This document shows, in pieces, positions 15,371 through 31,419 of a DNA stretch of 64,000 nucleotides. How positions within the stretch are numbered: position 1 is the stretch's first letter; every line of letters begins with the position of its first letter. Origin of the DNA: Paraglaciecola sp. L3A3 (GTDB taxonomy: Bacteria; Pseudomonadota; Gammaproteobacteria; Enterobacterales; Alteromonadaceae); the NCBI RefSeq assembly GCF_009796765.1, contig NZ_CP047023.1:5129501-5193500 (forward strand), written 5' to 3'. A program made the translations under genes and the position numbers. Under the pieces are notes generated by a model, which was not told the origin of the DNA, ran no database searches, and was given only the letters and a program-made list of their open reading frames with translations.

Positions 15371-15451
15371 AAATGCATAATAGTTTAGGTATATGAAACT
15401 ACAAACTTTGTGTATCTGTGCTTTTCGTTAATTGAAACACACAAACGTCAG

Positions 15452-15485
15452 AATGGAGTCAATAATTGACTCCATTACTTTCTTG
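15452..15485 (+). terminator. Terminator of the zinc-predicted operon
   Basis: A perfect 11-bp stem (AATGGAGTCAA / TTGACTCCATT) with a TAA loop, followed by ACTTTCTTGG. It lies about 80 bases beyond the receptor stop. Confidence 0.75.
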
Positions 15486-15636
15486 GTCATGAAAAAATAA
15501 TTTAATTTTTATGTGATTAAAGGATGTTTTATTTATGGCGATAATGTGCCAGTTAAAAGAGTACAACGCACCTTGCATGGTTAGCCGATTTTTGGCTGAC
15601 GTAAATGTGAAATAACTTAGGTCTTAGGGAACAACC

Positions 15637-15816
15637 ATGAACGAATTGAGTAATACCCCATCCAGTGAAAAATCAGAAGGTAGCTGTTGCAGCAAATCAA
15701 ATTGCTTTGCACCTCAAACGCCCGTAAGGCGTAAATTGGCCAAGGTTGGGCGTAATGATCTGTGTCCTTGCAATAGTGGTCTAAAATTTAAAAAATGTTG
15801 CGGGATAAATGTATAG
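15637..15816 (+). CDS. Small SEC-C motif protein, 59 aa
   Basis: This short gene begins [15 protein letters not shown] and ends with a complete SEC-C zinc-binding motif, [19 protein letters not shown]. The same CXCX8CC signature ends SecA and several small stress proteins. A second cysteine cluster (CCSKSNC) lies at residues 17-23. TAGGGA at 15625-15630 gives a good ribosome site six bases from the ATG. The protein should bind Zn2+ and has no signal peptide, so it is cytoplasmic. Its place just downstream of the Zur-associated operon is suggestive, but a terminator lies between them. It resembles small SEC-C proteins annotated in other marine gammaproteobacteria. Confidence 0.85.
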
Positions 15817-16092
15817 TAAAACCTGTGGTAAACGAAATGAATGTCGCAGTGCTCCCAGCACAATTAACACCTAGTATTTGAGCAAAAAATAACAGCATGC
15901 AGGAATGATTATATAAACATGGTTCTAACGCGTATTTGGGGTGTATAAATACAAATAACTCGGCAACTTGCTTCTATCTATTCACTATTGCTCTCTATAA
16001 ACTCATGGTTTTTAATAACGGATTCGAGACTTCAAAGTGACAGTATTTATCTTGGCGACATGCTTTGAAGCATCTCGATAGTGGGATATACA

Positions 16093-16986
16093 ATGAATAA
16101 GTGCACCTTGTTCGTCTTGCTTTTACTGATGACGATTATCACCAGCATTGTTTACTCAAGGAAGTTTGATATGTTTTCATTTTTCGATAAACACCCCAAA
16201 CCTGTGCCCACTACGGTGCATCCATTGGTTGGTGCAGAGCTAGTAGCCATATCAAATTACCCAAATTCACCATCCCCTCAGAGCAGTCAAACATTATGTC
16301 GGAAGGTAAAAGTTGAAGGCGGTTCTACGGGACGTTTAGTAACTGCAAACTCTATCATTGACACCAAGCAAACAGGTTTTATCTTCGACACCACCGAAGG
16401 TACGCAAGCATTCATTAATCACCCATCTGAATTTCGCTTTGACCTTTGGCCAGTCAACAAAGGCAAGCTAATAACCGCTAAAACACCATTAACCACCCAC
16501 GGCCTTAACGCCAGTGCTGAAAACTGGCTAAATTATAGTGTTGTTGATCTTGCTTGTTTGACATCAGAGCAACTGCTAGTTGCGGTGAGTTACTTAGCCC
16601 CAAGGCCCAAACTCGGGCTATATGTTTATAGCATTAGCACGGGGGAATTTAAATTATTGACTGAAGCCGAAGCAAATTCTCACGATTTAGACAAATACTT
16701 TGAGCAACGGATGTTACAGCCAGGTCAGTCTTTAGTGCTCTATTACAGCACAACCCAAAGACAGTCAGCCGAGATATACCACAACAATTATAACCATATA
16801 TTATTGTTTAATGAGCAATACCCAGATGGCCTAGAATTACTCAAGCTGGGTATCGACAATGGAAATATTACCAAGTGGCGCGTATTGGATAACACACTGT
16901 TTTTACATACCCTTGATAATAGAAATCCTAAAAACCCAGTTGTTAAAAACTGGTCTTTAGATATTTCTCAGCTATTAGTAGATTAA
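16093..16986 (+). CDS. Hypothetical membrane-anchored or exported protein, 297 aa
   Basis: I do not recognise this family. The protein starts with a strong hydrophobic segment (CTLFVLLLLMTIITSIVYS), an uncleaved anchor or signal. A proline-rich stretch follows (KHPKPVPTTVHPL), then a mainly beta-type domain with one pair of cysteines (CRKVKV and VDLACLTS). The ATG at 16093 is preferred over the in-frame GTG at 16081, because GTGGGA then forms a ribosome site. The gene stands alone in the accessory region, followed 91 bases later by another exported protein on the same strand. Confidence 0.65.
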   Translation: MNKCTLFVLLLLMTIITSIVYSRKFDMFSFFDKHPKPVPTTVHPLVGAELVAISNYPNSPSPQSSQTLCRKVKVEGGSTGRLVTANSIIDTKQTGFIFDTTEGTQAFINHPSEFRFDLWPVNKGKLITAKTPLTTHGLNASAENWLNYSVVDLACLTSEQLLVAVSYLAPRPKLGLYVYSISTGEFKLLTEAEANSHDLDKYFEQRMLQPGQSLVLYYSTTQRQSAEIYHNNYNHILLFNEQYPDGLELLKLGIDNGNITKWRVLDNTLFLHTLDNRNPKNPVVKNWSLDISQLLVD

Positions 16987-17077
16987 CCTTGAGCATGTGT
17001 TGCTCTAACATTCTGCAAAGGTATAACCGTCAATTTTCAGCTCCATTGGTCTGCTCGCAAAAGGATACGTTTGATTG

Positions 17078-17743
17078 ATGTATTGGGTATTAATGAGTTA
17101 CCTGCAACGATACCAAACTGGGGTCAATCCAAATGCGGCATGTACGGTAAGTGCGATAATAATTTTAGTCTTGAGTCTGCTGTCATGCCAAACAAGTGAT
17201 TTACAAAAGAGGGAACAAATGATGATCAATAATGCTGATTTTAATCACATTGAATTGTATTCGGATGTGCAAAACAAATGCTCCCCCCATATCAGTGTCT
17301 TTGCAGATTTCGCAGGTATTGCCATCAACTTACCCAGTGAAATCGTATTTGAAACCGGGCAGCATATAGAAGATGGGACGTTTGTGCGTTTTCCAATCTG
17401 CGGATTTTATCAGATAGAAATGACCGACTTGATTGCAGACGCCAGCATTATCATATCGGTGCTGAATATAGATACGGGGCAAAGCTATAAAGGTGAAATA
17501 GTGGATAAAGATCCTGGCCTTGAAGCAGAACCTGCTTTTTCACAGCCTGAGTTATCTCAAGTAGCACTACAAGGGCAAGTATTAGCGGCTTATTTTACTC
17601 GCAATTTAGTTAAATATGTTGACCTGCCCGCAAGTGAAGCACGCTACCAAGTCCAAGTTAATATTGGAAAATATCAATCTGAAATAGTAAATGTAGAAGT
17701 CATTGAGAGCAAAATGGGAGGCACTGATGCAGTTCAAAAGTAG
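17078..17743 (+). CDS. Hypothetical lipoprotein-like exported protein
   Basis: This protein of about 221 residues has an unusually long N-terminal stretch, then a hydrophobic core ending VLSLLSCQ, which fits a lipobox (L-S-C) and lipid attachment at the cysteine near residue 38. A shorter true start inside the frame is therefore possible. The mature part is soluble, acidic and beta-rich, with a cysteine pair (NKCSPH and FPICGF) that may form a disulfide. The ATG at 17078 is chosen over the TTG directly before it; AAGGATA lies ten bases upstream. I recognise no family. Confidence 0.6.
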   Translation: MYWVLMSYLQRYQTGVNPNAACTVSAIIILVLSLLSCQTSDLQKREQMMINNADFNHIELYSDVQNKCSPHISVFADFAGIAINLPSEIVFETGQHIEDGTFVRFPICGFYQIEMTDLIADASIIISVLNIDTGQSYKGEIVDKDPGLEAEPAFSQPELSQVALQGQVLAAYFTRNLVKYVDLPASEARYQVQVNIGKYQSEIVNVEVIESKMGGTDAVQK

Positions 17744-17773
17744 GCTCTAGATAAATGTCTGACTGTAAACTTC

Positions 17774-17803
17774 GTCATTCCTACATTTTGTTAGCAGGAA
17801 TCC
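17774..17803 (+). repeat. REP-like palindrome, copy 1
   Basis: This 30-base unit begins GTCATTCCTAC and ends TTAGCAGGAATCC, forming an imperfect ATTCCT-GC stem. The copy at 20064-20093 differs at two positions. A related but distinct palindrome lies at 23755-23783. Confidence 0.7.
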
Positions 17804-17842
17804 ATTCTTTAAAGGCAGTGAATAGTAAATAACCTGAATACT

Positions 17843-17967
17843 GAATAAGCCGAACCGCTCGGTAACGCTCTTTTTGTGCCTAGCGGCGATGGATTGTCTA
17901 GCAATAACACGTTATTACGTACGACAATCCTCCTTGCTATTTACGAAAAATTTCGTCACAGAGTGAC
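17843..17967 (+). repeat. 125-bp dispersed element, copy 1
   Basis: This segment contains GGTAACGCTCTTTTTG, GATTGTCTAGCAATA, TTATTACGTACGA, CCTTGCTAT and AATTTCGTCAC in that order. All recur, in the same order on the opposite strand, at 31513-31637. It ends with a small palindrome (GTCAC-AGA-GTGAC). Both copies are intergenic. It has no reading frame worth calling. Confidence 0.8.
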
Positions 17968-18215
17968 ACATAGAGCAGCAAATAAACCTTAAAATCAAAA
18001 TACCATCGGTACTCCCCATCCGGCATTCCATTAGTTCTTACTTACCCCTACGGGAAATGAGGACATGAGCCGATTAAACAGTGAGATTCGACTCATTCTG
18101 GGCAAAAAATTAGTTATCCATATCTATCATGGTAATACCAACCCCAATAAATAAATGTACACTCAGCGAGAATTTAATGGAATTGGTATAAGTCTGCCCA
18201 TATACCGAAATTAGA

Positions 18216-18626
18216 CTACAGACCCAAAGAATCCATAATTTCTGCCTTACTTAACTCTTTAGTTTTATTCGAAAAACAATAATAATCAGGACGTTGGTCG
18301 CTATAATATTGCAGATCCATTTCCAAATCTGATAAGTTTTTAAATATACCTACAGACATATTGTAATCGCCACTTTCACTAAATTTAAAAAATAAGTGGG
18401 TGCCACAGTCACTGCAAAATCCGCGGGTAGCCCAAGACGAAGAAGCATACATTTTTACTTTATCTTCTCCCTCTATCTCGATACTTGTGCCGCATTCAAC
18501 AGCAAAAAATGCCGAGCCACCCCATTCTCGACAAGTAACACAGTGGCATACAGTAAATTTAGGGTTAACATCTTTAGCTGTAATTTTAACTGCACCACAT
18601 AGGCAGCTAGCTTTAGCACTTATCAT
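18216..18626 (-). CDS. GFA family (glutathione-dependent formaldehyde-activating-like) zinc protein
   Basis: This 136-residue protein carries the GFA cysteine pattern: CLCGAV near residue 8, VCHCVTCREWGG near 26-36, and FCSDCGTHLFF near residue 70. These cysteines bind two zinc ions in the Gfa fold. The family is annotated after S-(hydroxymethyl)glutathione formation, but most members have unknown substrates. It is the second gene of a minus-strand pair (a VOC protein gene lies 65 bases upstream), divergent from a YafY-type regulator. The pairing suggests small-molecule or glutathione-adduct chemistry, but that is inference. Confidence 0.9.
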   Translation of the reverse strand: MISAKASCLCGAVKITAKDVNPKFTVCHCVTCREWGGSAFFAVECGTSIEIEGEDKVKMYASSSWATRGFCSDCGTHLFFKFSESGDYNMSVGIFKNLSDLEMDLQYYSDQRPDYYCFSNKTKELSKAEIMDSLGL

Positions 18627-18691
18627 TTAATTTCGTCCTCGAATAAATAAATTGAGCACGGAAACAAACTCGTTCCCGCTAATTCAGGCTG

Positions 18692-19090
18692 CTACTTATT
18701 AGCACCTTGTACCATACAAAACCCATTAAGCTTATTGCCGTCTAAGTCTCTAAAATATGCGCCATAAAAACCAAACTCTGCTCCTTCAGGTCTAAATCCA
18801 GGTTTACCTTCACAGGTACCGCCTAGCTCTAAGGCCTTATTATAAAAATCTTTGACTTGCTCAGGGGTTTCTAAATAAACAGCGACCATAGTGCCATTGC
18901 CTACAGTGGCTGGCTCTTTATTAAAAGGAATAGACACAGCAATAGAAGGTTCCTCAGGTGATTTTGCCCAAGCAATAAAATAACCCGCCTCTTCCATAAA
19001 CCGTTTCGCACCTATAGTGCCAAGTAATGCATCATAAAATGCGCTCGATTTTTCTAAGTCTGCGGTACCTAAGGTTACATAACCAATCAT
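18692..19090 (-). CDS. VOC family protein (glyoxalase/bleomycin-resistance fold)
   Basis: This 132-residue protein starts MIGYVTLGTADLEKSSAFYDALLG and ends AYFRDLDGNKLNGFCM, the paired beta-alpha-beta-beta-beta motifs of the vicinal oxygen chelate fold. An early metal ligand is not obvious (the position often His or Gln reads Y/T), whereas the late acidic DLDGN loop is present, so catalysis is uncertain. It is the gene nearest the divergent regulator at 19214 and probably heads a two-gene unit with the GFA gene. Regulation through the palindrome at 19140-19164 is likely. Confidence 0.9.
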   Translation of the reverse strand: MIGYVTLGTADLEKSSAFYDALLGTIGAKRFMEEAGYFIAWAKSPEEPSIAVSIPFNKEPATVGNGTMVAVYLETPEQVKDFYNKALELGGTCEGKPGFRPEGAEFGFYGAYFRDLDGNKLNGFCMVQGANK

Positions 19091-19139
19091 AATATTCTCC
19101 AGTGAGTTGTTGTTTAACGCAGCTAAATCTTAGTGGTTA

Positions 19140-19164
19140 ACTACTGACAGCTTCTGTCAGTAGT
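19140..19164. promoter_or_regulatory. Palindromic operator in the VOC/YafY divergent promoter
   Basis: ACTACTGACAG and CTGTCAGTAGT form perfect 11-base arms around CTT, in the 123-bp gap between the divergent genes. The position and symmetry fit an operator for the adjacent HTH-WYL regulator. No T run follows on either side, so a terminator is less likely. Confidence 0.7.
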
Positions 19165-19213
19165 GTTTCAATAGACTTAAATTTAATAAAAACGTCACTT
19201 TAGGGTTTATGCC

Positions 19214-19897
19214 ATGCATAGAGCTGAGCGGTTAAACGACATAGTACATTATTTACGCAGAATGCACCGAGCAGTAACGGCAGACACCTTAGCCGAAGCT
19301 TTTGAAGTATCTACGCGCACCATTTATCGTGATATCCAAAATCTACTAGACTCAGGTGTACCCATTAATGGCGAGGCTGGGGTAGGGTATGTGATAGATA
19401 AAAGTTACCACTTACCGCCTATCATGTTTGATGCAGATGAATTAGAAGCCATAGCCTTAGGTATTGGCATGGTAAGCAACTGGACAGACGAACTCTTCGC
19501 AGTCAAAGCACAAAATGCCTATAAAAAAATTCAAGCGACCTTGCCGGCACCATTACTTCACGAATTACATCAAATCAGTACCTTTTCGGCTCCGAGCCAT
19601 TATAAAATACCTTGGGAAGTCAGCTTTACCCAAGTCAGAGAATGTATTCGCAGAAAACAAAAAATTCAGTTCAATTACCTAGACTTACAAGACCAAACCA
19701 GCCAACGCACTATTTGGCCCCTAGCCCTGATTTCATTTAGCCCTGTATGGTTATTAGCCGGCTGGTGCGAATTACGCCAATCATTCCGCAACTTCCGCCT
19801 AGACCGGATAACCGAATTCACCGTCTCAGATAACCGCTACCCCAATGAAAAAGACAAAAACCTGCAAGCCTATTTGGCACAGATTAAACATGAATAA
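19214..19897 (+). CDS. YafY-type transcriptional regulator (HTH_11 + WYL)
   Basis: This 227-residue protein has an N-terminal winged helix (LNDIVHYLRRMHRAVTADTL to FEVSTRTIYRDIQNLLDSG) and a C-terminal WYL-type sensor domain (KIQFNYLDLQ, WPLALISFSPVWLLAGWCEL, FRNFRLDRI). Proteins of this plan usually repress or activate an adjacent divergent gene in response to a small ligand or nucleotide signal. It is divergent from the VOC-GFA pair, with a strong palindrome between them. The effector is unknown. Confidence 0.93.
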   Translation: MHRAERLNDIVHYLRRMHRAVTADTLAEAFEVSTRTIYRDIQNLLDSGVPINGEAGVGYVIDKSYHLPPIMFDADELEAIALGIGMVSNWTDELFAVKAQNAYKKIQATLPAPLLHELHQISTFSAPSHYKIPWEVSFTQVRECIRRKQKIQFNYLDLQDQTSQRTIWPLALISFSPVWLLAGWCELRQSFRNFRLDRITEFTVSDNRYPNEKDKNLQAYLAQIKHE

Positions 19898-20063
19898 AGC
19901 AGCGTGATACAGAATAAACAGAATGGGACAGAAAAAGCAGTAGATAGGAGATAGCGGCTAGGGGATAGAAAAAACGATATTCGGCAGATTGAAACAGAGT
20001 GGAACAGCATGAAGCAGCTTAAAAGCAGGTTCTAATTACGAGATTCGAACAACCTTAAAGTTT

Positions 20064-20093
20064 GTCATTCCTGCATGTTGTTAGCAGGAATCC
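20064..20093 (+). repeat. REP-like palindrome, copy 2
   Basis: GTCATTCCTGC, a nine-base loop and GCAGGAAT form an 8-bp stem. It differs from the copy at 17774 in only two bases. Confidence 0.7.
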
Positions 20094-20140
20094 ATTTTAA
20101 AACAAAAGACCAAAAGCGTGTCAAAGAGTAGCGCAGAGGA

Positions 20141-20346
20141 AAAAGCAGCGTGATGCAGACTAAGCAGAATGGGGCTGAGTGAAGCAGTTTAAAAGCAGGT
20201 TCTAGTTACAAGATTCGAGCAAAAAGTAAAAGCCGACAACAGCAGAAGCCCCCATCTATAAACATATAACATTGATTTTATTAAATTTTATATTATCCCT
20301 TCCGATGGGTGTCATGGTAAGTTTGCGATGGGTGTCATGGTAAGTT
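20141..20346 (+). repeat. Left direct repeat flanking the Fic gene
   Basis: It shares AAAAGCAGCG, AGCAGTTTAAAAGCAGGTTC, TAAAAG-CGACAAC, ACATAT-GCATTGATTTT-like blocks and a GCGATGGGTGTCATGG unit with 21632-21815, in the same orientation and order. The identity is imperfect, with small insertions. Confidence 0.7.
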
Positions 20347-20377
20347 AAAGTGAACAATAAAAGTATTGATTAGTAAT

Positions 20378-20442
20378 TGAGCCGATTAAGCTATACTATT
20401 CGGCTCATAATATGAGCCGAATAAGGACCGGTATTCGGCTCA
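20378..20442 (+). promoter_or_regulatory. Four-half-site operator array upstream of the Fic gene
   Basis: Exact half-sites alternate: TGAGCCGA (20378), TCGGCTCA (20400), TGAGCCGA (20413) and TCGGCTCA (20435). This makes two 30-bp inverted repeats in tandem with a 35-bp period. The middle two half-sites also form a 12-bp-arm palindrome. The array ends 33 bases before the Fic start. The Fic protein itself has a C-terminal winged-helix-like region and may be the autoregulator. Confidence 0.8.
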
Positions 20443-20475
20443 CTGCAATTAAACTTAATACTTTAAGGCGCTTTT

Positions 20476-21654
20476 ATGTACATCTGGCAATATCCAAATT
20501 GGACAGACTTTACTTATGAAGATCACCTAGTTAAACCTCTACTACAAGAGGTATTAACCAATCACCAGCGTTTGCTCGTTAAATCGACTGACTTACCTAA
20601 AGACCTTGATGTACAGGCCCAAATGGACGCTTTGATCCAAAACGCCATCAACACTTCCGAGATAGAAGGCGAACACCTTAACCTAGGGTCTGTGCGTTCT
20701 TCCGTAGCTCGCCACTTAGGGCTAGAACAGGCAGGCTTTACTACTGGTCAAATATCCCAGCCTACTGAGCAAACCGATAGTTTGGTCAAACTATTAACAC
20801 AGGTTACAGCAAACTTAGATGAATCATTGACGATAGACCAACTATGTCAATGGCAGAGTGCCTTATTTCCTCAGGCGCCACTTTTACGCAAAATTAAAAT
20901 AGGCGAATTGCGTGATGACGCACCTATGCAAGTCGTATCCCAAAGTAGAGGCCAAGAAACAGTACATTTTGAAGCCCCTCCCAAAGCAGATTTAGAAAAA
21001 CAGCTCACCCATTTTACGGCTTGGTTTAATACACCCCAACAACCCAATAAGGCTACTGATGGTGCAGGAATAATTCGCGCGGCTTTTGCCCATTTATGGT
21101 TTATCACTCTACACCCTTTTGAAGATGGTAATGGCCGCACCGCAAGAGCTTTAACCGATCGGGCTTTGGCACAATGGGAAAACACCAGTATCCGTTTTTA
21201 TTCACTGAGTAGCGCTATCGAGCAAAACCGTAAACGCTACTACCAAATACTTGAAGCCACCCAAAGAGTTAAAACAAACAGTCAGCAAGCAAACAATCAA
21301 ATCAATGATGTGACCGATTGGTTGGTGTGGTTTTTAACTATATTTAATCAGGCTATTGAACAAGGCCTGCAGCGTATTGAACGAGTGGTGGATAAAAGCA
21401 GATTTTGGCAGCAACATAGCCAAACCGTACTATCGGAACGTCAGGTTAAAGTGCTCAATCGTTTATTAGACTCTCAAGGCGAAGAGTTTGAGCTAGGCAT
21501 CAATGCCCGTAAATACCAAAGCATAGCCGCAGTCAGTAAAGCCACCGCCACCCGTGATCTGGCTGACTTAGTAAATAAACAATGCCTTAAACCACTAGCT
21601 GGTGGCGGCAGATCAACACGCTACGTAGTGAAAAAGCAGCGAGAAGCAGACTAA
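20476..21654 (+). CDS. Fic family protein (DUF4172-type N terminus), putative AMPylase
   Basis: This 392-residue protein has an N-terminal inhibitory-type motif TSEIEG (residues 60-65) and the catalytic Fic motif HPFEDGNGR at 213-221. Its C-terminal region (about 310-390) resembles a winged helix (SERQVKVLNRLLDSQ, AVSKATATRDLADLV). Fic proteins transfer AMP or other phosphate groups to target proteins; the N-terminal glutamate (E64) would keep this class II enzyme inactive until displaced. All core residues look intact. The last codons lie in the right-hand direct repeat, so the 3' end may be a fusion product. The tandem operator upstream suggests autoregulation. Confidence 0.93.
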   Translation: MYIWQYPNWTDFTYEDHLVKPLLQEVLTNHQRLLVKSTDLPKDLDVQAQMDALIQNAINTSEIEGEHLNLGSVRSSVARHLGLEQAGFTTGQISQPTEQTDSLVKLLTQVTANLDESLTIDQLCQWQSALFPQAPLLRKIKIGELRDDAPMQVVSQSRGQETVHFEAPPKADLEKQLTHFTAWFNTPQQPNKATDGAGIIRAAFAHLWFITLHPFEDGNGRTARALTDRALAQWENTSIRFYSLSSAIEQNRKRYYQILEATQRVKTNSQQANNQINDVTDWLVWFLTIFNQAIEQGLQRIERVVDKSRFWQQHSQTVLSERQVKVLNRLLDSQGEEFELGINARKYQSIAAVSKATATRDLADLVNKQCLKPLAGGGRSTRYVVKKQREAD

Positions 21655-21815
21655 AGCAGTTTAAAAGCAGGTTCTAGTTACGAGATACGAGATACGAGAT
21701 ACGAGCCAAAAGTAAAAGGCGACAACCGCAAAAAATCAACCAATTAAAACATATGGCATTGATTTTTATTATATTTTCTATATTTTTATGGCGATAGATT
21801 TCATGATAAATTTTA
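21632..21815 (+). repeat. Right direct repeat flanking the Fic gene
   Basis: Partner of 20141-20346. It begins within the last codons of the Fic gene and contains a small tandem (ACGAGAT repeated three times, near 21678-21700) that the left copy lacks. Confidence 0.7.
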
Positions 21816-22080
21816 TTGTGTAAATTTGTCTGGGCTCATTTTGTTTTACTTAAAAATACTATGTGACTAATTTAACGATGGAAAATATTTTGCTCATAGT
21901 ATTTAATAGGAAACATAAAAAGTCGCATTAAAGTCAGGTCTCCTTTTGCTTTTGCAACTCCTTGCTGTTTTGATGGCATGACGGTATAAATACGAATAAA
22001 ATCAAAGGGTAAGAGCTATAATTGATAAAAATGAAAATTAAATCTAGAAATTATAAATACGACATACTCGATAATAAGCG
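21816..22080. other. Non-coding stretch before the cassettes
   Basis: With the right-hand repeat, this makes 446 bp without a gene after the Fic stop. It is A+T rich and I see no integrase, attI feature or reading frame in it. It ends in TAAGCG, the left side of the first cassette junction. Confidence 0.5.
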
Positions 22081-22086
22081 TTAGGC
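22075..22086 (+). repeat. Cassette junction 1 (attC/attI-like crossover core)
   Basis: TAAGCGTTAGGC. The GTTAGGC inside it fits the integron crossover core GTTRRRY. The identical 12-mer recurs at 22534-22545, on the other side of the DUF2513 gene. Confidence 0.65.
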
Positions 22087-22100
22087 ATACAAGGACATTT

Positions 22101-22463
22101 ATGCAGAGAAATTGGGATACAGTTCGTGAAATTATGCTTAAAGTTGAGGCTTTAGAGCCAACTCAAATGTTAAGTCTTAGTGAATTTGAAAAGGATAGAG
22201 ATTATGAAATTTCTTACCATGTTCAAATGCTTGAAGAAATTGGGTTAATTCGAGCTTCTATTTCTCGAACAATAAGTAAAGGTGCAAACGGTTTCAATGT
22301 TAAGGAATTAACATGGCACGGTCATGAATTCCTTGATTCTGTTCGAGAGCAATCGACTTGGTCAAAAACTAAGACACTAATTAGCAGTAAAGGTGGTGTA
22401 ATGACATTTGAGGTAATCAAAACTGTTGCTGCGAGTTTAGTAAAATCAGCTATTGGTGAGTAA
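22101..22463 (+). CDS. DUF2513 domain protein (gene cassette)
   Basis: This 120-residue protein starts MQRNWDTVREIMLKVEALEP and contains ISYHVQMLEEIGLI and ELTWHGHEFLDSVREQSTW, the pattern of DUF2513, a winged-helix-like family found in phages, islands and integron cassettes. AAGGAC lies five bases upstream of the ATG. The gene begins 20 bases after one GTTAGGC core and ends just before an attC-like hairpin, so the unit 22081-22539 has the layout of an integron gene cassette. A DNA-binding or regulatory role is plausible but unproven. Confidence 0.85.
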   Translation: MQRNWDTVREIMLKVEALEPTQMLSLSEFEKDRDYEISYHVQMLEEIGLIRASISRTISKGANGFNVKELTWHGHEFLDSVREQSTWSKTKTLISSKGGVMTFEVIKTVAASLVKSAIGE

Positions 22464-22467
22464 GTAT

Positions 22468-22545
22468 GCTTAACAAAAACATCATGGTGAGAATTTTTTT
22501 CGCTGAAAAAACGCCTCTAGAATCCTCATGTGTTAAGCGTTAGGC
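22468..22545 (+). other. attC-like recombination site
   Basis: This 78-base segment starts GCTTAAC, which fits the R'' box (RYYYAAC), and ends GTTAGGC, which fits the R' box (GTTRRRY). The arms pair imperfectly: GCTTAACA...CATCATGG against CCTCATGTGTTAAGC, and an inner TTTTTTTCGC against GAAAAAACG. There are unpaired bases on one side. The size, boxes and position directly behind a cassette-like gene all fit an integron attC. Confidence 0.68.
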
Positions 22546-22554
22546 CTTTCGAGA

Positions 22555-23685
22555 ATGCCTGAAAACAAGAAGCACCACTTTGTTCCGAAATTTTACCTGA
22601 GGCGGTTCTCCCGCAACGGTAAAAGCATTAATTTGTGGAATATACCGCGTCAGCGAAAAATTTTGTCTGCGAACCTCAAGAGCCAATGCTATCGCGATTA
22701 TTTCTACGGCAAAGATCAAACGGTGGAGCATGCCCTTGGTGAAAGTGAGGGCCAAGCCGCTGAAATATTCCGATTAATCGACAACAATTCTCCGCCACCA
22801 CCAGGGTCGCCAATCCATTTGATGTTGATGATCTACGTTTTAGCCCAGTACGGTAGGAGTGCCTATTCGATCGATGCGCTCCAAGACATGAACGATCAGA
22901 TGATGAAGCGTTTACTGGGCCACATGCCTGAGGCCAAGGATTACGATCTCAGCAAGTTCAAGATAGAGCTTAAGGAAGCCGGCCGCTATTCAGTTGGCTT
23001 GGTTGTCCAAAATTATCCACTAATGCTAGATCTTGATTACAAGATCCTGCTCAACAAGACGGACTGCGAATTGGTTGCGTCTGATAACCCCGTTGTCCTT
23101 TACAACCAGTTCCTGAAGTTTATGAAGTTCGGAAGCAATACCGGGCTCGCTTGCAAGGGATTGCAGATTTTTCTCCCGGTAGGCCCTGACAAAGCGATTT
23201 TTTTCTTTGACCCGGAAGTTTATAGCGTAGGTGGCGGAGCAAAGCTTACGGTGGACCTCACAAAGCCCCGGGATATATATGAATTGAATACACTGCAAAT
23301 TTGTAATGCTTCTAAGAACGTCTACTTCAAGAACGACGAATTCAACATTGAAGCTTTGGCGAAGCGTGGCGAACCATTCCGGCGTAAGAAGAAATCCACG
23401 GTCTCTGGTTTTCCTACTATCGAAGATCCTTGCCGAAAAAGTGAATTAATCGCCGCTTCTCGGGAGGACGTCAACACCAATCTTCACCTTACATTTGTCC
23501 GTGTGAGAGGGGCCGCTAGGAAATGGGCAACAACTTTCAAGAAGCAGAAACATTGGCCTTCTGCTGTTGTGCGCAACCAAGAGCTTTGCGAGGATCACAA
23601 GGAATTTCTGAATTTGGTGCGCGAAGGGAAGTTTGAGCCAAGCGAGTTCTTCGAGTTTATGGATTCAAGACATGACCGGAGCTAG
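22555..23685 (+). CDS. DUF4238 domain protein (gene cassette)
   Basis: This 376-residue protein begins MPENKKHHFVPKFYLRRFS, the diagnostic HHFVPxFYL motif of DUF4238, followed by long alpha-helical and mixed regions without a signal peptide. The family is common in integron cassettes and defence or accessory islands; its biochemical role is unknown. The ATG lies ten bases after the GTTAGGC core at 22539. Its G+C content and codon choice (GGC, CTC, AAG) are clearly richer than in its neighbours, which indicates recent transfer from another genome. I see no convincing attC behind it, so its cassette may be truncated on the right. Confidence 0.87.
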   Translation: MPENKKHHFVPKFYLRRFSRNGKSINLWNIPRQRKILSANLKSQCYRDYFYGKDQTVEHALGESEGQAAEIFRLIDNNSPPPPGSPIHLMLMIYVLAQYGRSAYSIDALQDMNDQMMKRLLGHMPEAKDYDLSKFKIELKEAGRYSVGLVVQNYPLMLDLDYKILLNKTDCELVASDNPVVLYNQFLKFMKFGSNTGLACKGLQIFLPVGPDKAIFFFDPEVYSVGGGAKLTVDLTKPRDIYELNTLQICNASKNVYFKNDEFNIEALAKRGEPFRRKKKSTVSGFPTIEDPCRKSELIAASREDVNTNLHLTFVRVRGAARKWATTFKKQKHWPSAVVRNQELCEDHKEFLNLVREGKFEPSEFFEFMDSRHDRS

Positions 23686-23754
23686 TCGGTAGCCGAACGA
23701 ATCTTATTTGGACAGCCATCGTAGGATATACAATTTAGTGCTTTTTAAAAAATA

Positions 23755-23783
23755 GATTCCGGCTTAAAAACCGCCGGAATGAC
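23755..23783 (+). repeat. REP-like palindrome, variant
   Basis: ATTCCGGC and GCCGGAAT form a perfect 8-bp stem around a nine-base loop, followed by GAC. The shape resembles the copies at 17774 and 20064, but the stem sequence differs. Confidence 0.6.
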
Positions 23784-23842
23784 GAGAAAAAGCAAAAAAT
23801 GCATACCTAAGGCCTTACCTAGTTTTTTAGTGTGCGAAGCAC

Positions 23843-23908
23843 ATGCTTTTGATTTTGTCGCGACTCAAAGCTCGCTATTTTTTATTACAAACTCAATAGG
23901 ACAATTGG
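23843..23908 (+). repeat. Dispersed repeat, copy B
   Basis: Matches 9572-9640 (ATGCTTTTGATTTT, GACTCAAAGCTC, ACTCAATAG-ACAATTG blocks) in the same orientation, with a few small gaps. Confidence 0.65.
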
Positions 23909-24308
23909 CAAGGATAGCCAATTGAGTGGTGTTTTGTCGGGGACCTCTTGTTTTAATAAAGAGTGCACGGCCTTTTGAGTTTATAAAAAATAGGGTAAGC
24001 GCTTTGTTGGAGAGCGGCTTCTTTTGCCTACTTTTCTTAGCTGTTGACCACATTGACTGGATAAATTTGGAACGTACTTTAGTGCGGCCCGTAGGTGAAA
24101 TATAGGGATATATTTCATAACAAAAGTAGGTCAGACGAAATGGATTTCGTTTGAAAAAAGCCATAGATGGCAGTAAGCAACGCGAATGCTTTGTGAACGA
24201 AGTGAATTAATCACATGGACAGTCATTGTAAAAGTCAGTTATTCAAATAATTTGCCTAGTACTAGGTGCTGGTTATGATTAGGGCATATACTAGCGGTAG
24301 TCATTTTA

Positions 24309-25313
24309 ATGGGGATGAAGTTGAAAATAATGGTTAGTAAATTTAGTCTAGTGTTATTGCTGTCGAGCTTGCTGCTGGTGGGGTGTGGTGGTTCAAGTGA
24401 TACACCTGCTGAGTCAGTTCGTCATGCTGATGATGTGGCTGATGCTGCTAATATTTCTGCTGATGCGGGCTTGAGTGTAGTGTCGAATATTAGTTCTGGC
24501 ATTGTGGTTTGGGATCTCAACACGAATAAACAAAAATATGCTTGGGGTTTGCAAGGCGATGGCATTAATTTAGTCACTAATATTCATATTGCTTTTGATA
24601 ATAGTTATGTTGTTACATCGGATCGCGAAACCTTTACTTTATGGAATCTAACAGACGGCGAACCAGAAGGGTTTTGGCGCATAGATGAAGCGAGTATTCG
24701 CGATGTGGCTGTGTCGAATTCGGGGCGTGGAATTTTGGTCGCTAGAAGTAACGGCAAAGTCATGTTTTTTGAGCCTAAAACTGGTCGACGTTTAGAGTTT
24801 CTAGGGCATCAAGAAAAAGTAAATAGTGTTGATATATCACCTAATGGATTTTACGCATTAACGGGCGGTAATGATTATTTAGCTTACCTTTGGGACACCC
24901 GCACGGGGCAGGTCATACACAAATTCAACCACTCTAGCCGAGTGACTAAAGTGGTATTAGATGATCAAGGTCGTTATGCCTTTACTGCTGACAGTAAACG
25001 AGATGCTAAAATTTGGGATTTAGTCACCGGCAAAGAAGTCAGTAACTTACAATATTTATCTCGCCAGCGAATCTTTACCACAGCTGCTTTTTCAGAAGAT
25101 GGTCAATACCTACTAACAGGATCACCTGCAAAAAGAGTAAACTTGTGGAATGTTGGTTCAGGAGAAGAGCTTAATGAATGGCGTGTTTCTCCTCGAGTTG
25201 CCAGTCAACCTCCAACCGCTGTGGTTTATTCTGTTGCTTTTGCCAACGAAAATGAAATATTGACAGAAAGTAGCAGTGGTTTATTAGAAAAATGGAAAAT
25301 AGATAAAAAATGA
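24309..25313 (+). CDS. WD40-repeat lipoprotein
   Basis: This 334-residue protein has a lipoprotein signal ending LLLVGCGGSS (lipid cysteine near residue 26). At least five WD40-type blades follow, each with a GH...(W)D-like unit (GIVVWDLNTNK, FTLWNLTDGE, YLAYLWDTRTG, AKIWDLVTGKE, VNLWNVGSGEE). It should fold as a beta-propeller at the inner face of the outer membrane and serve as a protein-interaction platform. The first ATG is used; ATGs six or eighteen bases later are possible starts. Its stop overlaps the slyX start by four bases, so the two are coupled. Partners are unknown. Confidence 0.88.
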   Translation: MGMKLKIMVSKFSLVLLLSSLLLVGCGGSSDTPAESVRHADDVADAANISADAGLSVVSNISSGIVVWDLNTNKQKYAWGLQGDGINLVTNIHIAFDNSYVVTSDRETFTLWNLTDGEPEGFWRIDEASIRDVAVSNSGRGILVARSNGKVMFFEPKTGRRLEFLGHQEKVNSVDISPNGFYALTGGNDYLAYLWDTRTGQVIHKFNHSSRVTKVVLDDQGRYAFTADSKRDAKIWDLVTGKEVSNLQYLSRQRIFTTAAFSEDGQYLLTGSPAKRVNLWNVGSGEELNEWRVSPRVASQPPTAVVYSVAFANENEILTESSSGLLEKWKIDKK

Positions 25314-25522
25314 ATTCAATAGACAATAGTATTGAACAATTAGAAATGAAAGTTGCTTTTCAAGAAGACACCATTGAGAGCCTTAACCAAGCGCTAATTG
25401 GACAGCAAAAACAAATAGATGATCTGCAGTTTAAAATCAAACAATTGATTACAAAAATAAGTGCCATTGAGCCTAGTAATATGGCTTCTGAAAAAGAAGA
25501 AATGCCCCCCCCACACTACTAA
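25310..25522 (+). CDS. slyX: SlyX family protein
   Basis: This 70-residue protein is almost entirely coiled coil (IEQLEMKVAFQEDTIESLNQ and onward) and ends in the typical PPPHY tail of SlyX. The family is widespread in Proteobacteria but has no settled function. In E. coli slyX lies close to slyD, yheV and yheS, and the same gene block recurs in this window, which supports the call. It overlaps the preceding WD40 gene by four bases. Confidence 0.93.
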   Translation: MNSIDNSIEQLEMKVAFQEDTIESLNQALIGQQKQIDDLQFKIKQLITKISAIEPSNMASEKEEMPPPHY

Positions 25523-25816
25523 TCAGAACAATTTGCAATAACAACGACGGCAGAATCATAAAAAGTATTATATGAAAATTTCGCGAGGCTTTAATTGTTG
25601 TTCAATAAACATTCTATTGTAAAGAAGTGTAAAGATATTTAAAAAAGTGAACTCTGTTTTGTCCTTTAAGTCTGAACTTCACCAACAATAAAGCAAGTCC
25701 TGTTAGTATTTACACATAAAAACTAACACTTTCAGCTTTTATCACAGTAATATAGCAGCAATGCTTTTATAATAGTAATATAGCAGTAACATAATTTGAA
25801 AATTAATGGAGAAAAA

Positions 25817-27322
25817 ATGAAGTGTAATAAAGCTGGTTTGCGAGGAATTCAGTTTTCCTTGCTTGGTATAATTGCTGTTGCTATTTCAGCCTGTGGGTCG
25901 AGTAGTGATGATGATGAGAATGGTTATATCAGGTTATATAATGCATCGTTAAATGCTCCTCAAATATATCTGACAGTAGATGAAAATTTAGATGAAGATG
26001 ATGATGATGAAATAGAAATTACCTATAGCCCAGTTGCCTATTCTAAAGTGAGTGCCAGCAATGCCTTATCAACAGGTACTTATTACACCGAGTTAGCGTG
26101 GCAAGATGAAGAAAGTAGCGAAAGAAGTGATTTAGAATTGATTTTTGAAGATAGTGTCGATATTAAATCGGATAATATTAGTTTTTATGCACTGACAGGA
26201 GATGTTCAAAATCCTGATGTACTTTATTTTGATATTCCAGTGGTCGATGACGATGACGATGACGATGACGATTTGTTTAATGTGAGATTACTAAACCTTC
26301 ATCCTGATTATCAAGATGTTGATCTTTATATGTCTGAAAATGATGAAACTTTTAATGAAGCAGTGTTAATAGAAACGGCTAGTTATAAAGCATTAACCGA
26401 CAATATAAAAGTTGAGCAAGACCAATACATTTTTTATATTACCGAAGCTGGCAGTACAGACGTACTTTACACTTCTGTAGCCCAATCATATTCGGTTGTT
26501 AGCCAATACGTTATCGCTATACGTGAAAACATAGGTGTAGGGAGTTCACCATTCTCTATAGATAACATAGGTATTAATGGTACAACCGCACTAAATGATG
26601 TGGACTCAGAAGCTGAATTTAGTTTTTATAATGCCCTAACTGAGTCTGAGTATTTACCTGATTACCAAAGTGAAGTTGATATTGATGTTGGTTTATTAAA
26701 CGATATCACTAGTATTAAAAATTTACAGTTAGGTCAATTTAGTGAACTGATTACAGGGGAAAATGGTGATTATGACTTTAGTGTCTCTAATTCAAACACT
26801 GGTGAAGTCTATATTAAAAACGCCTTGTTAAGTTTACAAGAGAATGCATCTAGTGCGATCTTTATTTACGGTACAAAAGAGCCAATTGATGACGATAATG
26901 ATGGTAATTATGACGAAGATGATGACGGTATCATTGACGGTTATGAAACTAAAATCAAATCGTTATCAATCACTAAAAGTGACAGTACTAGTATCTATAG
27001 CCATAATGTGCGTATTATTAATTTCACTGATTCAGATGATTTTAGCCGTGTGACTTTCTATTTTGTATTGAATGACGAGATCATTTCAACAGCAGATAAT
27101 AAACTATCAGTATTACAAGAAAGTAGCGGCAATATTTCATTACTGAACAATACTTATCAGCTGCATGCTATCGCAACTATTGATGGTATTGAAAGAAAGC
27201 TGAATAGTATGGAATTGATATTAAACACTGAAAGCCAAGATCAATTTTTATTATTTGAAGAAGATGAGTCAACCTCTTCAGGCTTTAAAATAACGCTAGT
27301 TAATCAAAAAGCTTCTGATTAA
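25817..27322 (+). CDS. DUF4397-like exported lipoprotein, acidic
   Basis: This protein of about 501 residues begins MKCNKAGLRGIQFSLLG and has a lipobox VAISACGSS (cysteine near 26). The mature part opens with IRLYNASLNAPQIYLTVDE, which resembles DUF4397, and repeats of that fold seem to follow. It is strongly acidic: long Asp runs near residues 145-155 and a DDDNDGNYDEDDDGIIDG stretch near 360-380 that looks like a thrombospondin-type-3 calcium site. The ATG at 25817 is chosen because GGAG lies seven bases upstream. It interrupts the slyX-yheV synteny and is followed by a strong hairpin. Function is unknown; a calcium-dependent surface protein is plausible. Confidence 0.75.
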   Translation: MKCNKAGLRGIQFSLLGIIAVAISACGSSSDDDENGYIRLYNASLNAPQIYLTVDENLDEDDDDEIEITYSPVAYSKVSASNALSTGTYYTELAWQDEESSERSDLELIFEDSVDIKSDNISFYALTGDVQNPDVLYFDIPVVDDDDDDDDDLFNVRLLNLHPDYQDVDLYMSENDETFNEAVLIETASYKALTDNIKVEQDQYIFYITEAGSTDVLYTSVAQSYSVVSQYVIAIRENIGVGSSPFSIDNIGINGTTALNDVDSEAEFSFYNALTESEYLPDYQSEVDIDVGLLNDITSIKNLQLGQFSELITGENGDYDFSVSNSNTGEVYIKNALLSLQENASSAIFIYGTKEPIDDDNDGNYDEDDDGIIDGYETKIKSLSITKSDSTSIYSHNVRIINFTDSDDFSRVTFYFVLNDEIISTADNKLSVLQESSGNISLLNNTYQLHAIATIDGIERKLNSMELILNTESQDQFLLFEEDESTSSGFKITLVNQKASD

Positions 27323-27333
27323 CGTCTAAAAAC

Positions 27334-27379
27334 ATAAGTACTGAAGCCGTAAATAATATTAAACGGCATCAGTACTTAT
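27334..27379 (+). terminator. Hairpin after the DUF4397-like gene
   Basis: ATAAGTACTGA-A-GCCGT pairs with ACGGC-A-TCAGTACTTAT across a 12-base loop: 16 bp with one mismatch. A strong intrinsic-type stem, but only a weak T run follows. Confidence 0.65.
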
Positions 27380-27463
27380 TCTCTAGTTTCGTTATTCAGT
27401 AAACGAGCCTCAAGAAACATCTTTAATATTGCCATTAAAGGCAAGTCTTAAGCAGGATCTTAA

Positions 27464-29110
27464 ATGAAACAAACAAGATTGGCCCTTTGGTCGTTATTTA
27501 CTTTTCTAATTAGTCCACAAGCATATAGCGCCCAGTACAGAATAGTAGAACTTCCCGTTGCTGAATTAGGAAATAGTACCTTTCCAACTGCAATTAATAA
27601 TACGGGTGACATAGCAGTAAACCTGCAACTCCAATATAACCCTTATATTGATACTAGCTTAATTGACTTTAATTCAGCTATTGTGATGAGTAACTTAATT
27701 AATATTGATGGTGTCAGAGGTGGCGATTTAGAAGGCACAGACTACCTTTGGCTGTATAGTTATATTACCGGAAATGCCGAGAGCCTGCTGTTTCAGCAAA
27801 TAGCTAACATAAATAGTTATATCGATAATGGCTCAAGTAGTGAACCTGTACATGGTTTTGATACATTTGATAATTTCACTAAAGAATACAATAACAGTGC
27901 TGCAGTTACGGTTAGAAGTATTAACAATTCAGGTAGTTTAGCTGGAGTCAGCCAAGATGGTTTTTATGACCTGACATATTTTTCTGATGATGGTTTAAGT
28001 ACAACTTATATAGTGAATGATTTTTATTCGAGAGCTTTTGCTGAAGTTGATGGTAAAACTACAGAATTAGCTCCCCCAGAAACGACGGCCGGAGGCTTGA
28101 GTGAAGCTTTTGATATTAATATCAATAATCAAGTAGTGGGGTTTGGCACTACAGAACTGATGACAGATGCATTTAAAACCAGTGTTGATAATTGTTTAGG
28201 TGAAAAAACATGTTTGCGTTCATATAGTCAGCAACTTAATGCAAATGTTGGTTCTATCGCCCAAAAGAGGGGTATTATTTGGCAACTAGATGATAACGGT
28301 AACCTAACAGACACCTTCCCTTTAGGCATGTTAATTACGCCCAGCTCTACAGACACTAATATATATAACAGTAAAGCTGTGGCCATTAATGACAATGGTA
28401 TAGCAGTGGGAGAGTCACCTGCCTTTTATCTTAATACTACATCGTTAACTACGGCTGCAGCTATTTATATCGATGATCAGGTTACTACCATCAATCAAGA
28501 TGAAGAAGTGTTTGCCAGTACTGCAACAGATATCAACAACAATAACTTAATGGTGGGAACCATCACCAAAAGAGTCGCTGGCATAACTCGACAAAAGTTT
28601 TTTGTACACGACGTTGATGCAAACATCACTTTATATCCTGATGATTTTTTCCCTGGTTCATCCAGTACAGCATTATCAATCAACAACGAAAATATGGTTG
28701 TGGGTTATGCAGAGTATGAAGCATCGGTCTCTACTACAAGGCGCACAGAAGGTTTTATTTATGATTACAGGAACGACTTATTTTTAGGTTTAAACAGTTT
28801 AATTGAATGTAATTCTTCTTATTCAATCGTGCAGGCAAATGCCATCAATGATAGTAATGAAATTGCCGCTACAGCACTGGTAAATGCCCCTGTAAAAAAT
28901 ATTCAGGGTGAAATTATTTATGATGAATTAGGGGCCACTACAGAAGTAAATCAAGTTGTTGCGGTTAAATTAATCCCTATAGAAGGTGGCTCAGTAGATA
29001 ATTGTAATGTTTCTAGTGGAGTGCAAGAAAGGCAAGGAGCCAGTATAAGTTGGTTGTTAATATTGGGTTTCTTCGGTTTAGGATTTAAAGGTTTTATTCG
29101 TTTACGTTAA
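27464..29110 (+). CDS. DUF3466 family exported protein with C-terminal sorting tail
   Basis: This 548-residue protein has a cleavable signal (ending PQAYSAQY) and repeated short units of the form AINNxGxI(A/V)...G (AINNTGDIAVN, INNSGSLAGVS, AINDNGIAVGES, INNENMVVGYA). That pattern fits DUF3466 proteins of marine gammaproteobacteria and suggests a beta-propeller-like repeat fold. The end, SWLLILGFFGLGFKGFIRLR, is a hydrophobic helix followed by basic residues, like the GlyGly/PEP-CTERM sorting tails. It lies between the DUF4397-like gene and yheV. A surface or periplasmic role is inferred. Confidence 0.83.
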   Translation: MKQTRLALWSLFTFLISPQAYSAQYRIVELPVAELGNSTFPTAINNTGDIAVNLQLQYNPYIDTSLIDFNSAIVMSNLINIDGVRGGDLEGTDYLWLYSYITGNAESLLFQQIANINSYIDNGSSSEPVHGFDTFDNFTKEYNNSAAVTVRSINNSGSLAGVSQDGFYDLTYFSDDGLSTTYIVNDFYSRAFAEVDGKTTELAPPETTAGGLSEAFDININNQVVGFGTTELMTDAFKTSVDNCLGEKTCLRSYSQQLNANVGSIAQKRGIIWQLDDNGNLTDTFPLGMLITPSSTDTNIYNSKAVAINDNGIAVGESPAFYLNTTSLTTAAAIYIDDQVTTINQDEEVFASTATDINNNNLMVGTITKRVAGITRQKFFVHDVDANITLYPDDFFPGSSSTALSINNENMVVGYAEYEASVSTTRRTEGFIYDYRNDLFLGLNSLIECNSSYSIVQANAINDSNEIAATALVNAPVKNIQGEIIYDELGATTEVNQVVAVKLIPIEGGSVDNCNVSSGVQERQGASISWLLILGFFGLGFKGFIRLR

Positions 29111-29141
29111 CACATTAGAAATAGCCATTTATTAATTGTCA

Positions 29142-29176
29142 GTATTTAAGCCTGTGATTTATTCAGGCTTAAATAC
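29142..29176. terminator. Bidirectional terminator between DUF3466 gene and yheV
   Basis: A perfect 13-bp stem (GTATTTAAGCCTG / CAGGCTTAAATAC) with a nine-base loop. It overlaps the last codons of yheV and lies 32 bases after the DUF3466 gene, so it can serve both converging genes. Confidence 0.75.
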
Positions 29177-29365
29177 ACCAATTACACTTTCGCTGGAACG
29201 AGTGGCTTTAGTCACTTGTTTATCAGCTTGTGATTCGTGGTAATCACATTGCACACACTGTAATTTTTCGACGTTATTTTCAAAATACAGCATTATAGTG
29301 TCCATTGATTTGCATTGAGGACAGGTTGCGCCAGCGACAAAACGTTTTTTAATTTTATTAACCAT
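29159..29365 (-). CDS. yheV: YheV family zinc-ribbon protein
   Basis: This 68-residue protein starts MVNKIKKRFVAGATCPQCKS and has a second knuckle (LQCVQCDYH). The two CXXC pairs form a zinc ribbon. The tail SSESVIGVFKPE matches the conserved YheV ending. In E. coli yheV is next to kefGB and yheS; here it is divergent from yheS with 149 bp between them, so synteny supports the call. Its function is not established. Confidence 0.93.
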   Translation of the reverse strand: MVNKIKKRFVAGATCPQCKSMDTIMLYFENNVEKLQCVQCDYHESQADKQVTKATRSSESVIGVFKPE

Positions 29366-29514
29366 TATTTTATTAACTATCGATTAGTGATTTTTTCGGC
29401 TGTTCATCTTGGTATGATACCCCCAATAGATTTTTAGTGTTATCTCTTCTTCTGTAAATTGTCTTTTTAGGCGTTTAAGTAAGTGATGCAAATTTAGTTT
29501 TTAAACAGGTTTTC

Positions 29515-31419
29515 ATGATCCAATTTTCTGATGTTACTTTAATGCGTGGTAGTAAAATATTGCTACAAGATGCCAATGCTGTTGTTTACCCTGGGCATAA
29601 AGCTGGGTTAATTGGAGCAAATGGTTGTGGTAAATCCACATTGTTTGCCTTAATTAAGGGAGAATTACAAACTGAAGCAGGTGACTTCAAAATTCCTAAA
29701 AATTGGCAAATCGTGTCGGTGGCCCAAGAAACACCGGCAGTGGATCGTTCTGCCATAGATTATGTGATTGATGGTGATAAAAACTTTCGTCAATTACAAG
29801 CTGAGTTAGTACTTGCTGAAGAGTCTCATAATGGCGAAAAGATTGCCCATCTGCACAGTTTGTTAGAACAGGCTGGTGCATATGATATTGAATCGCGAGC
29901 AGCCTCTATTTTAGCCGGTTTAGGTTTTGCGAATGATGTAGTGCGTAATCCTGTGACCGCTTTTTCGGGTGGTTGGCGTATGCGCTTAAACTTAGCACAA
30001 GCCTTATTATGCCATTCAGACTTATTGTTATTAGATGAACCCACAAATCACTTAGATTTAGACGCCGTGATTTGGTTAGAAAAATGGCTGCAAAGGTACA
30101 CTGGTACTTTGTTGTTAATTTCTCACGACAAGTCTTTTCTCGATAGCACTGTGAATGAAATTATCAGCGTAGAACAACAAGAGTTGATTTGTTATACGGG
30201 TAATTACGACTCATATGAAAAACAACGAGCAGAACGTTTACGTCTGCAAAGCCTGCAATATTCCAAACAACAAGATCAAATTGCTCACTTAGAATCTTTT
30301 ATTCGACGTTTTGGTGCCAAAGCGAGTAAGGCGAAACAAGCACAAAGTCGAGTTAAACAATTAGAAAGAATGGAAACCTTATTGCCAGTCATGGCCGCAT
30401 CTGAATTTTCTTTTGAGTTTTTTACTCCACCCAAGTTGCCTAACCCTTTGGTAAAAATCGAACAAGTTAAAGTAGGTTACGACAGCACCATCATTTTAGA
30501 AAAACTTCATCTTAATTTAGTACCCGGTAGCCGGATTGGTTTATTAGGTAAAAACGGGGCGGGTAAGTCGACACTGATTAAGTTGTTAGCTGGCGAAAAG
30601 ACACCTATGGAAGGGATTTACGAAACCTCAGCAGGCTTGCGCATTGGTTATTTTGCTCAGCATCAACTGGAGTTTTTACGGGGAGACGATTCGGCCTTAG
30701 CTCACATGCAAAGGTTAGATCAAAAAGCCACAGAACAAAGCTTACGAGATTATCTTGGAGGTTTTGGTTTTAGAGGCGATAACGCCCTCAGTAAAGTGGC
30801 GCCTATGTCCGGTGGTGAAAAAGCGCGATTGGTTTTAGCCATAACTGTATATCAAAAGCCTAATCTATTATTACTGGATGAACCGACCAACCACTTAGAT
30901 TTGGATATGCGTCATGCCTTGAATATGGCCTTGCAAGGTTTTGAAGGGGCAATGGTGCTGGTATCCCATGATAGGTTTTTATTAACCTCTGTGTGTGACG
31001 ATTTTTATCTAGTGGATAGTGGCCAAGTTCAAGCATTTGATGGAGATCTAGATGATTATAAAAACTGGATCCTTAAAGGTGACAAAACTGAAAATGTAGA
31101 AGGCGATAAAACGGAAATTAAACCCGATCGTAAAAATACTAAACGACTGGCGGCTGAGTTTAGACAAGCGACCCAACCACTAAGAAAAGCCATTACTAAA
31201 TTCGAAAAAGTTATGGAAAGTGCACAACAGAAGTTAACTAAGTTAGAAAGCCAGCTTAGCGACACTGAGTTATACAACCCAGAAAACAAAATAAAACTGA
31301 AACAAGTATTAGCAGAACAGGCTGAACAAAAGTCGTTATTAGAAGATGCTGAAATGGAATGGTTAGATACGCAAGAGCAGCTAGAAGTAAAACAGCAAGA
31401 GTTTGAGCAAAATAGTTAA
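29515..31419 (+). CDS. yheS: ABC-F family ATPase YheS
   Basis: This 634-residue protein has two ABC domains and no membrane segment. The first has Walker A GANGCGKST, signature FSGGWRMRLNLAQAL and LLLDEPTNHLDLD. The second has GKNGAGKST, SGGEKARLVLAITV and LLLDEPTNHLDLD. Between them is the PtIM-type linker, and a C-terminal coiled coil (FEKVMESAQQKLTKLESQLS) follows. This is the layout and length of YheS, one of the four E. coli ABC-F proteins that bind the ribosome E site and relieve stalled translation. It leads to yheT and yheU, as in E. coli. Confidence 0.95.
   Translation: MIQFSDVTLMRGSKILLQDANAVVYPGHKAGLIGANGCGKSTLFALIKGELQTEAGDFKIPKNWQIVSVAQETPAVDRSAIDYVIDGDKNFRQLQAELVLAEESHNGEKIAHLHSLLEQAGAYDIESRAASILAGLGFANDVVRNPVTAFSGGWRMRLNLAQALLCHSDLLLLDEPTNHLDLDAVIWLEKWLQRYTGTLLLISHDKSFLDSTVNEIISVEQQELICYTGNYDSYEKQRAERLRLQSLQYSKQQDQIAHLESFIRRFGAKASKAKQAQSRVKQLERMETLLPVMAASEFSFEFFTPPKLPNPLVKIEQVKVGYDSTIILEKLHLNLVPGSRIGLLGKNGAGKSTLIKLLAGEKTPMEGIYETSAGLRIGYFAQHQLEFLRGDDSALAHMQRLDQKATEQSLRDYLGGFGFRGDNALSKVAPMSGGEKARLVLAITVYQKPNLLLLDEPTNHLDLDMRHALNMALQGFEGAMVLVSHDRFLLTSVCDDFYLVDSGQVQAFDGDLDDYKNWILKGDKTENVEGDKTEIKPDRKNTKRLAAEFRQATQPLRKAITKFEKVMESAQQKLTKLESQLSDTELYNPENKIKLKQVLAEQAEQKSLLEDAEMEWLDTQEQLEVKQQEFEQNS

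Follow-up and report, generated by a model that had tools for sequence, protein, structure and literature searches.

A probable integrase-less attI locus with gene cassettes in Paraglaciecola sp. L3A3 and its relatives in the genus

How do gene cassettes come to lie in a chromosome at a place with no integron integrase beside them? The question is raised by a locus of Paraglaciecola sp. L3A3, analysed here within a 64,000-nucleotide stretch of contig NZ_CP047023.1 (the 64-kb window, to whose positions all plain coordinates refer). Two identical 12-mers, TAAGCGTTAGGC, occupy positions 22075-22086 and 22534-22545 at a spacing of 459 bases. The pair had been pointed out in an earlier note based on the letters of the window, and it is confirmed as the only exact occurrence in the 5.31-Mb host genome, where a reversed control pattern has 0 matches. 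The two plus-strand genes named in the same note are likewise recovered by Pfam: a DUF2513 gene at 22101..22463 (120 aa; PF10711, E 8.5e-26) and a DUF4238 gene at 22555..23685 (376 aa; PF14022, E 1.6e-35). Their base composition does differ as sharply as claimed, with 35.3% and 46.9% GC, respectively, in a window averaging 39.6%. Rfam matches in the window stayed at chance level. We conclude that the two 12-mers are the marks of two cassette boundaries.

The strongest single element of the locus is the segment 22468-22545 (plus strand), which ends with the second 12-mer. The earlier note had proposed covariance scoring for its candidate attC-type site; a model derived from 11 other attC sites of Paraglaciecola gives the segment 77 bits (E 9.2e-19), with a predicted crossover at 22539/22540. 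Two further models were kept out of the searches: a first one, the automatic structure of which did not follow the attC fold, and a broad 31-site model, for which no base pairs were obtained. The hairpin also described in the note holds up less well, the bare single-stranded fold being modest (bottom strand z -1.83, with 9 of 200 shuffles folding equally well), and covariation support for the structure is next to nil because the aligned sites are too alike. The attC assignment therefore rests on homology, and on homology to sites beside intI in other species (L077, L078, L089, L093 and L098) we take 22468-22545 to be a true attC. Near two of the broken intI loci in the host lie relatives of this site, with 86% and 84% identity. 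The 11-site model matches in at least 21 of the 22 genus genomes and at no fewer than 11 sites in the host; among the 10 host matches listed, two lie far from intI loci, the one in the window and one at genome positions 4481580-4481657 (L136), a second isolated attC with no attI core of the window type. The same model yields no second attC anywhere else in the 64 kb, even at E up to 10, so the suggested cluster of attC sites lacking an integrase comes down to a single site.

Immediately before the first crossover lies a 267-bp attI region (21814..22080, plus strand), comprising a leader and the left half of an attI site. Its core, ATACGACATACTCGATAATAAGCG^TTA (22057..22083, plus strand), has one mismatch to the genus pattern and a predicted crossover at 22080/22081. 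A search of the genus with 19900-22074 found 21814-22074 many times, the counts being lower bounds, and the 41 copies considered below are the window and 40 others, mainly the longest matches, fetched with up to 4 kb per side; contig ends cut five of these loci (L187, L191, L192, L195 and L205). The aligned copies share a conserved right end, TCGAGAAGTTACATATACGACATGCTCGATAATAAGCG^TTA. Homology to the window stops at 22082-22086 in 28 of the 40 other copies, extends to 22088-22095 (the query end) in nine and breaks off earlier in three, two of them at contig ends. An intact or broken intI adjoins seven of the 41 copies (L168, L170, L181, L185, L195, L174 and L166), L185 being counted once for two overlapping matches; L174 retains an N-terminal intI fragment only, and L166 contains the broken host gene. 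The remaining 34 have no intI in the fetched flanks, and include three loci (L167, L187 and L202) with tyrosine recombinase matches of only 24-30%. Searched as a pattern with up to 3 mismatches, the core occurs at 41 places in 15 of the 22 genus genomes, three of them in the host, and at 13 more places in 10 of 371 further genomes; a control pattern gave 0 matches in the 393 genomes. In 10 attI-core loci outside the genus set, intI lies within 1.5 kb in two, and one (L227) is uninformative, with almost no left flank. The attI leader gave no support for a conserved RNA, since none of 22 predicted pairs (0 of 22) shows changes in both partners. By the homology of the 267 bases to intI-linked attI regions, the first 12-mer can be identified as the right end of the attI region.

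Cassette 1 (22081..22539, plus strand, 459 bp) is bounded by the two cores, and its left border is supported also by the same gene in another Paraglaciecola species (G013), which encodes a protein 95% identical and lies at a different genomic place. The nucleotide alignment opens with TAGGCATACAAGG, a single base into the predicted cassette, and falls apart within the attC. The outcome that the earlier note had named as refuting was checked in part and not observed: the attC scores strongly, and homology in G013 sets in at the predicted 22081 boundary. The G013 locus yielded no attI core. The attC of the DUF2513 cassette has different inner parts in two species (L053 1869-1943 versus window 22468-22545).

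The DUF4238 gene would occupy a probable second cassette (22540..23685, plus strand, counted to the end of the gene), starting at the second core, with no detectable attC. Its start codon is 15 nt past the second crossover, the median distance to the first ORF over the 41 attI copies being 22 nt, and a first ORF of at least 60 aa begins within 150 nt of the crossover in 34 of these. The 11-site model detects no attC after the gene, a result that could miss an attC of quite another type; the unit was probably a cassette with an attC that has since been lost. Close relatives of the DUF4238 protein were found neither among 394 genomes of the order (three others, at 28-32%) nor on plasmids (best 33.8% identical) nor in viral contigs. 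Gene order upstream differs in the nine relatives compared. A WD40 gene downstream of the locus is present in 31 of 40 genomes searched; in the nine relatives, its neighbourhood contains none of the other upstream window ORFs with a length of 120 aa or more.

Which integrase could have acted here? The window contains no TIGR02249 or PF00589 match, all 15 TIGR02249 matches of the genome lying elsewhere; the absence of an integrase from the window, as initially noticed, is thus verified, and together with the 77-bit attC it supports the interpretation as integron cassettes without an integrase. The genome-wide search that had been recommended found three host intI-like loci, all interrupted: one by an in-frame TAA (4392967-4393986), one spread over several frames (494666-495467) and one reduced to fragments (156089-156582). 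Across 29 intI loci, the attI core lies upstream of four (L082, L092, L093 and L095), all belonging to one clade, which we named IntI-B. The host IntI-B is broken into three pieces, which align to the G012 protein with 90-100% identity, and the window attI site is therefore probably inert, or frozen, at present. Between genomes G006 and G012, intI-B and its attI are 95.8% identical over 1.4 kb, with no other match above 60 bp between the two loci. Since the module is alike and its flanks unlike, it seems to travel. In surveys of intI loci, an intact IntI-B was not found in most genomes with lone sites, which thus offer no view of service in trans.

The main cassette array of the host (L025) has further features of its own. 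Two identical reverse-transcriptase-like ORFs (1047-2336 and 3018-4307), which presumably resemble group II intron proteins, lie beside attC sites. At 5691-7630, in the interval separating the array from the broken integrase gene, are a transposase-like ORF, which we take to be IS91-like, and a tyrosine recombinase ORF with a near copy at 1.63 Mb in the host.

Lone attI sites tend to be followed by cassettes. Under a simple attC rule, which scores the window itself as a miss and has no downstream sequence to examine in L191, an attC lies within 1.5 kb downstream in 23 of the 34 lone loci, whereas the upstream control gives 4 of 34 on the same strand and 2 of 34 on the opposite one; the covariance model finds 24 attC sites in the 40 other attI loci. 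L178 (G006) and L196 (G007) are 91% identical over 3.2 kb of left flank and 84% over the unit, and their cassettes differ past the crossover; the right flank common to both contains a transposase-like gene, so their orthology rests on the left flank. L192 and L179 match until 3 bases past the crossover, and the cassette stretch common to L202 and L204 (88%) starts 2 bases before the L204 crossover. These comparisons fit cassette exchange at lone attI sites, short of proof. The idea that intI itself moves between orthologous attI loci was dropped, as the right flanks shared with intI-linked loci proved to be transposase-like genes. Three kinds of such genes occur to the right of attI arrays (in L168, L171 and L197; in L171 and L177; and in L170, L178 and L196), judged by eye to be of IS110, IS4 and REP-associated types.

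The lone units also share putative ends. With up to 4 mismatches allowed, 16 of the 34 lone copies carry a motif, GWGCSAAWWGCNGWCMTTSGC, between -394 and -439 relative to the crossover; in four of the seven intI-linked copies the motif lies between -1410 and -1510. Its fit to left ends is partly by construction, as it was derived from these same loci. Inverted copies lie within 4 kb downstream in nine of 40 loci, and in eight of these nine fall -25 to +60 bases around the end of an attC-like site, that of L188 being weak (22 bits). None of 60 column-permuted motifs exceeded 1 left end, 5 loci downstream or 1 attC-adjacent placement, for observed values of 16, 9 and 8. Inverted copies occur upstream too (10 hits in seven loci, some next to the left end), and the downstream excess that had been expected was abandoned at raw counts of nine versus seven loci; only the attC-adjacent placement stands out. 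In 552 kb of other fetched loci, GWGCSAAWWGCNGWCMTTSGC has 8 hits at up to 3 mismatches: four in L137 and L147 (both overlapping lone units), three in L141 and L145 (both fetched for isolated attC sites) and one in L066. L141 3962-7319 may be another unit, in which the two end motifs flank an isolated attC and no attI core of the window type was detected. No target-site duplication was recognised in the eight units with both ends, the outer ends of which are uncertain. The shared end motifs suggest that the units may spread by transposition, with a transposase supplied in trans.

A LexA-like box, CTGTN8ACAG (at most 1 mismatch), is found at -54/-55 from the position equivalent to 21814 in 26 of the 41 copies, followed in 20 of those 26 by GTATAAT; the background is 88 in 332,017 positions. 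SOS-controlled expression of units carrying the box and TATAAT is plausible on this arrangement. The window copy has no left end, LexA-like box or right end (the end motifs having been sought in window positions 15000-33000), which speaks against taking its birth as a lone unit for granted; judged against its relatives, it appears to be a decayed copy with the left part gone.

A Fic-domain gene (DUF4172 and Fic; 20476-21654), matching the PADLOC model for the anti-phage protein SoFic at E 5.9e-43, lies just left of the attI region. The gene is flanked by an imperfect direct repeat (20185-20324 and 21656-21813; 72% over 159 columns), the second copy of which abuts the attI region on its left. 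At about 20050-20104 there is a short sequence with many near copies in the host and other genus genomes, perhaps a REP-like repeat.

Taken together, the observed attI homology, attC, left cassette border, absence of intI and end motifs in relatives lead us to interpret the locus, with a probability of about 0.65, as a decayed attI platform that was once served in trans, one of a family of such integrase-less sites scattered through Paraglaciecola. Its content is best read as an attI, one complete cassette (DUF2513 with its attC) and a second one, holding DUF4238, that has seemingly lost its attC. An IntI-B encoded elsewhere in the genome would have been supplied in trans and would have recombined the folded attC sites of circular cassettes with the window attI at G^TT, thus placing the cassettes behind attI. 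Lone attI units would themselves spread by transposition, the transposase again acting in trans, and the LexA-like box and TATAAT at the left of the unit, lost in the window copy, would put expression under SOS control. Extended to the genus, the proposal would be that Paraglaciecola has a distributed integron, made of mobile, transposon-like attI units with end repeats and a LexA-boxed promoter region and filled in trans by an integrase gene that comes and goes. We offer this wider picture tentatively, at somewhat less than even odds.

The locus might instead be the remnant of a complete integron in which intI, left of 21814, was deleted or replaced, and no service in trans would then be needed. 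Left of 21814 the window is unlike the other copies and carries the repeat that is also found before the Fic gene, which suits loss of intI from the window unit as well as birth as a lone site; in addition, the 495-kb copy of the host has a broken intI, and L174 retains only an N-terminal piece. However, 34 of 41 copies are without intI, and 16 lone copies share a left segment, unrelated to intI, that starts from a common motif, which separate deletions would not give. On balance we consider this origin rather unlikely.

Much less probable is an off-target insertion of cassettes by a distant integrase at a chance attG-like site, akin to the single cassettes captured at a secondary site that the earlier note had envisaged. 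Loot et al. reportedly described insertion at attG in 2024, and isolated attC sites do exist in the host (4481580) and the genus; 12 of the 15 isolated attC loci fetched have no attI core of the window type, and other routes to isolated cassettes therefore exist. At this locus, however, such an insertion is contradicted by the 267 bases preceding the crossover, which copy the region directly upstream of intI in some other Paraglaciecola genomes. Finally, the weak bare-DNA fold would suit a chance resemblance to cassettes, the two genes being ordinary ones, a view hardly credible given the attC E-value of 9.2e-19, an attI core with 0 control matches and the sharp border in G013.

As a decayed attI platform, the locus resembles CALIN and SALIN elements in having an attC-bearing cassette far from any integrase. 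Such elements are common in marine genera, Shewanella having 115 single sites in 41 genomes (PMC9229058). The locus differs from these elements in having its own attI, which the available text on them does not mention; it has one attC site, for the two or more by which IntegronFinder 2 defines a CALIN by default, and a single attC site may, according to a published account, still be true (PMC9024848). With sedentary chromosomal integrons it shares an attI, here recognised by homology, attC sites and variable cassettes; it differs in the absence of an integrase from the window, and hence of an adjacent intI, and in having one attC only. MITE-like and Tn402-like-mobilised integrons also have an integron part between inverted end repeats with no transposase inside; these carry intI, whereas the lone units hold attI alone and occur at many places per genus. 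The nearest taxonomic parallel is in a related genus, Alteromonas, where cassette regions with attC sites, located at two chromosomal positions away from the integrase, were reported in 2014 to be expressed (PMC4119200); unlike the lone attI units, they come with no attI unit or end repeats in the available text of that report. For cassette arrays that lack an integrase, the account at hand gives three proposed origins: off-target insertion, intI loss and rearrangement (PMC8618304). A search by titles and abstract openings, weighted to open-access literature, returned no description of dispersed integrase-less attI units.

As to the cargo, both families had been set down as of unknown function, which is wrong for DUF4238: one protein with the same Pfam domain as the window protein, PF14022, is described as a single-gene anti-phage system giving strong resistance to phage T7 (PMC9122126). 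PADLOC models do not match the window DUF4238 protein at E up to 0.1, and a literature search weighted to open-access papers found nothing on DUF2513. With a reported defence gene family in the second cassette and a SoFic-like gene just upstream, the cargo may be relevant to phage defence. If the lone attI units are what they appear to be, they would add a further origin of integrase-less cassette arrays, and one integrase could feed several landing sites per genome.
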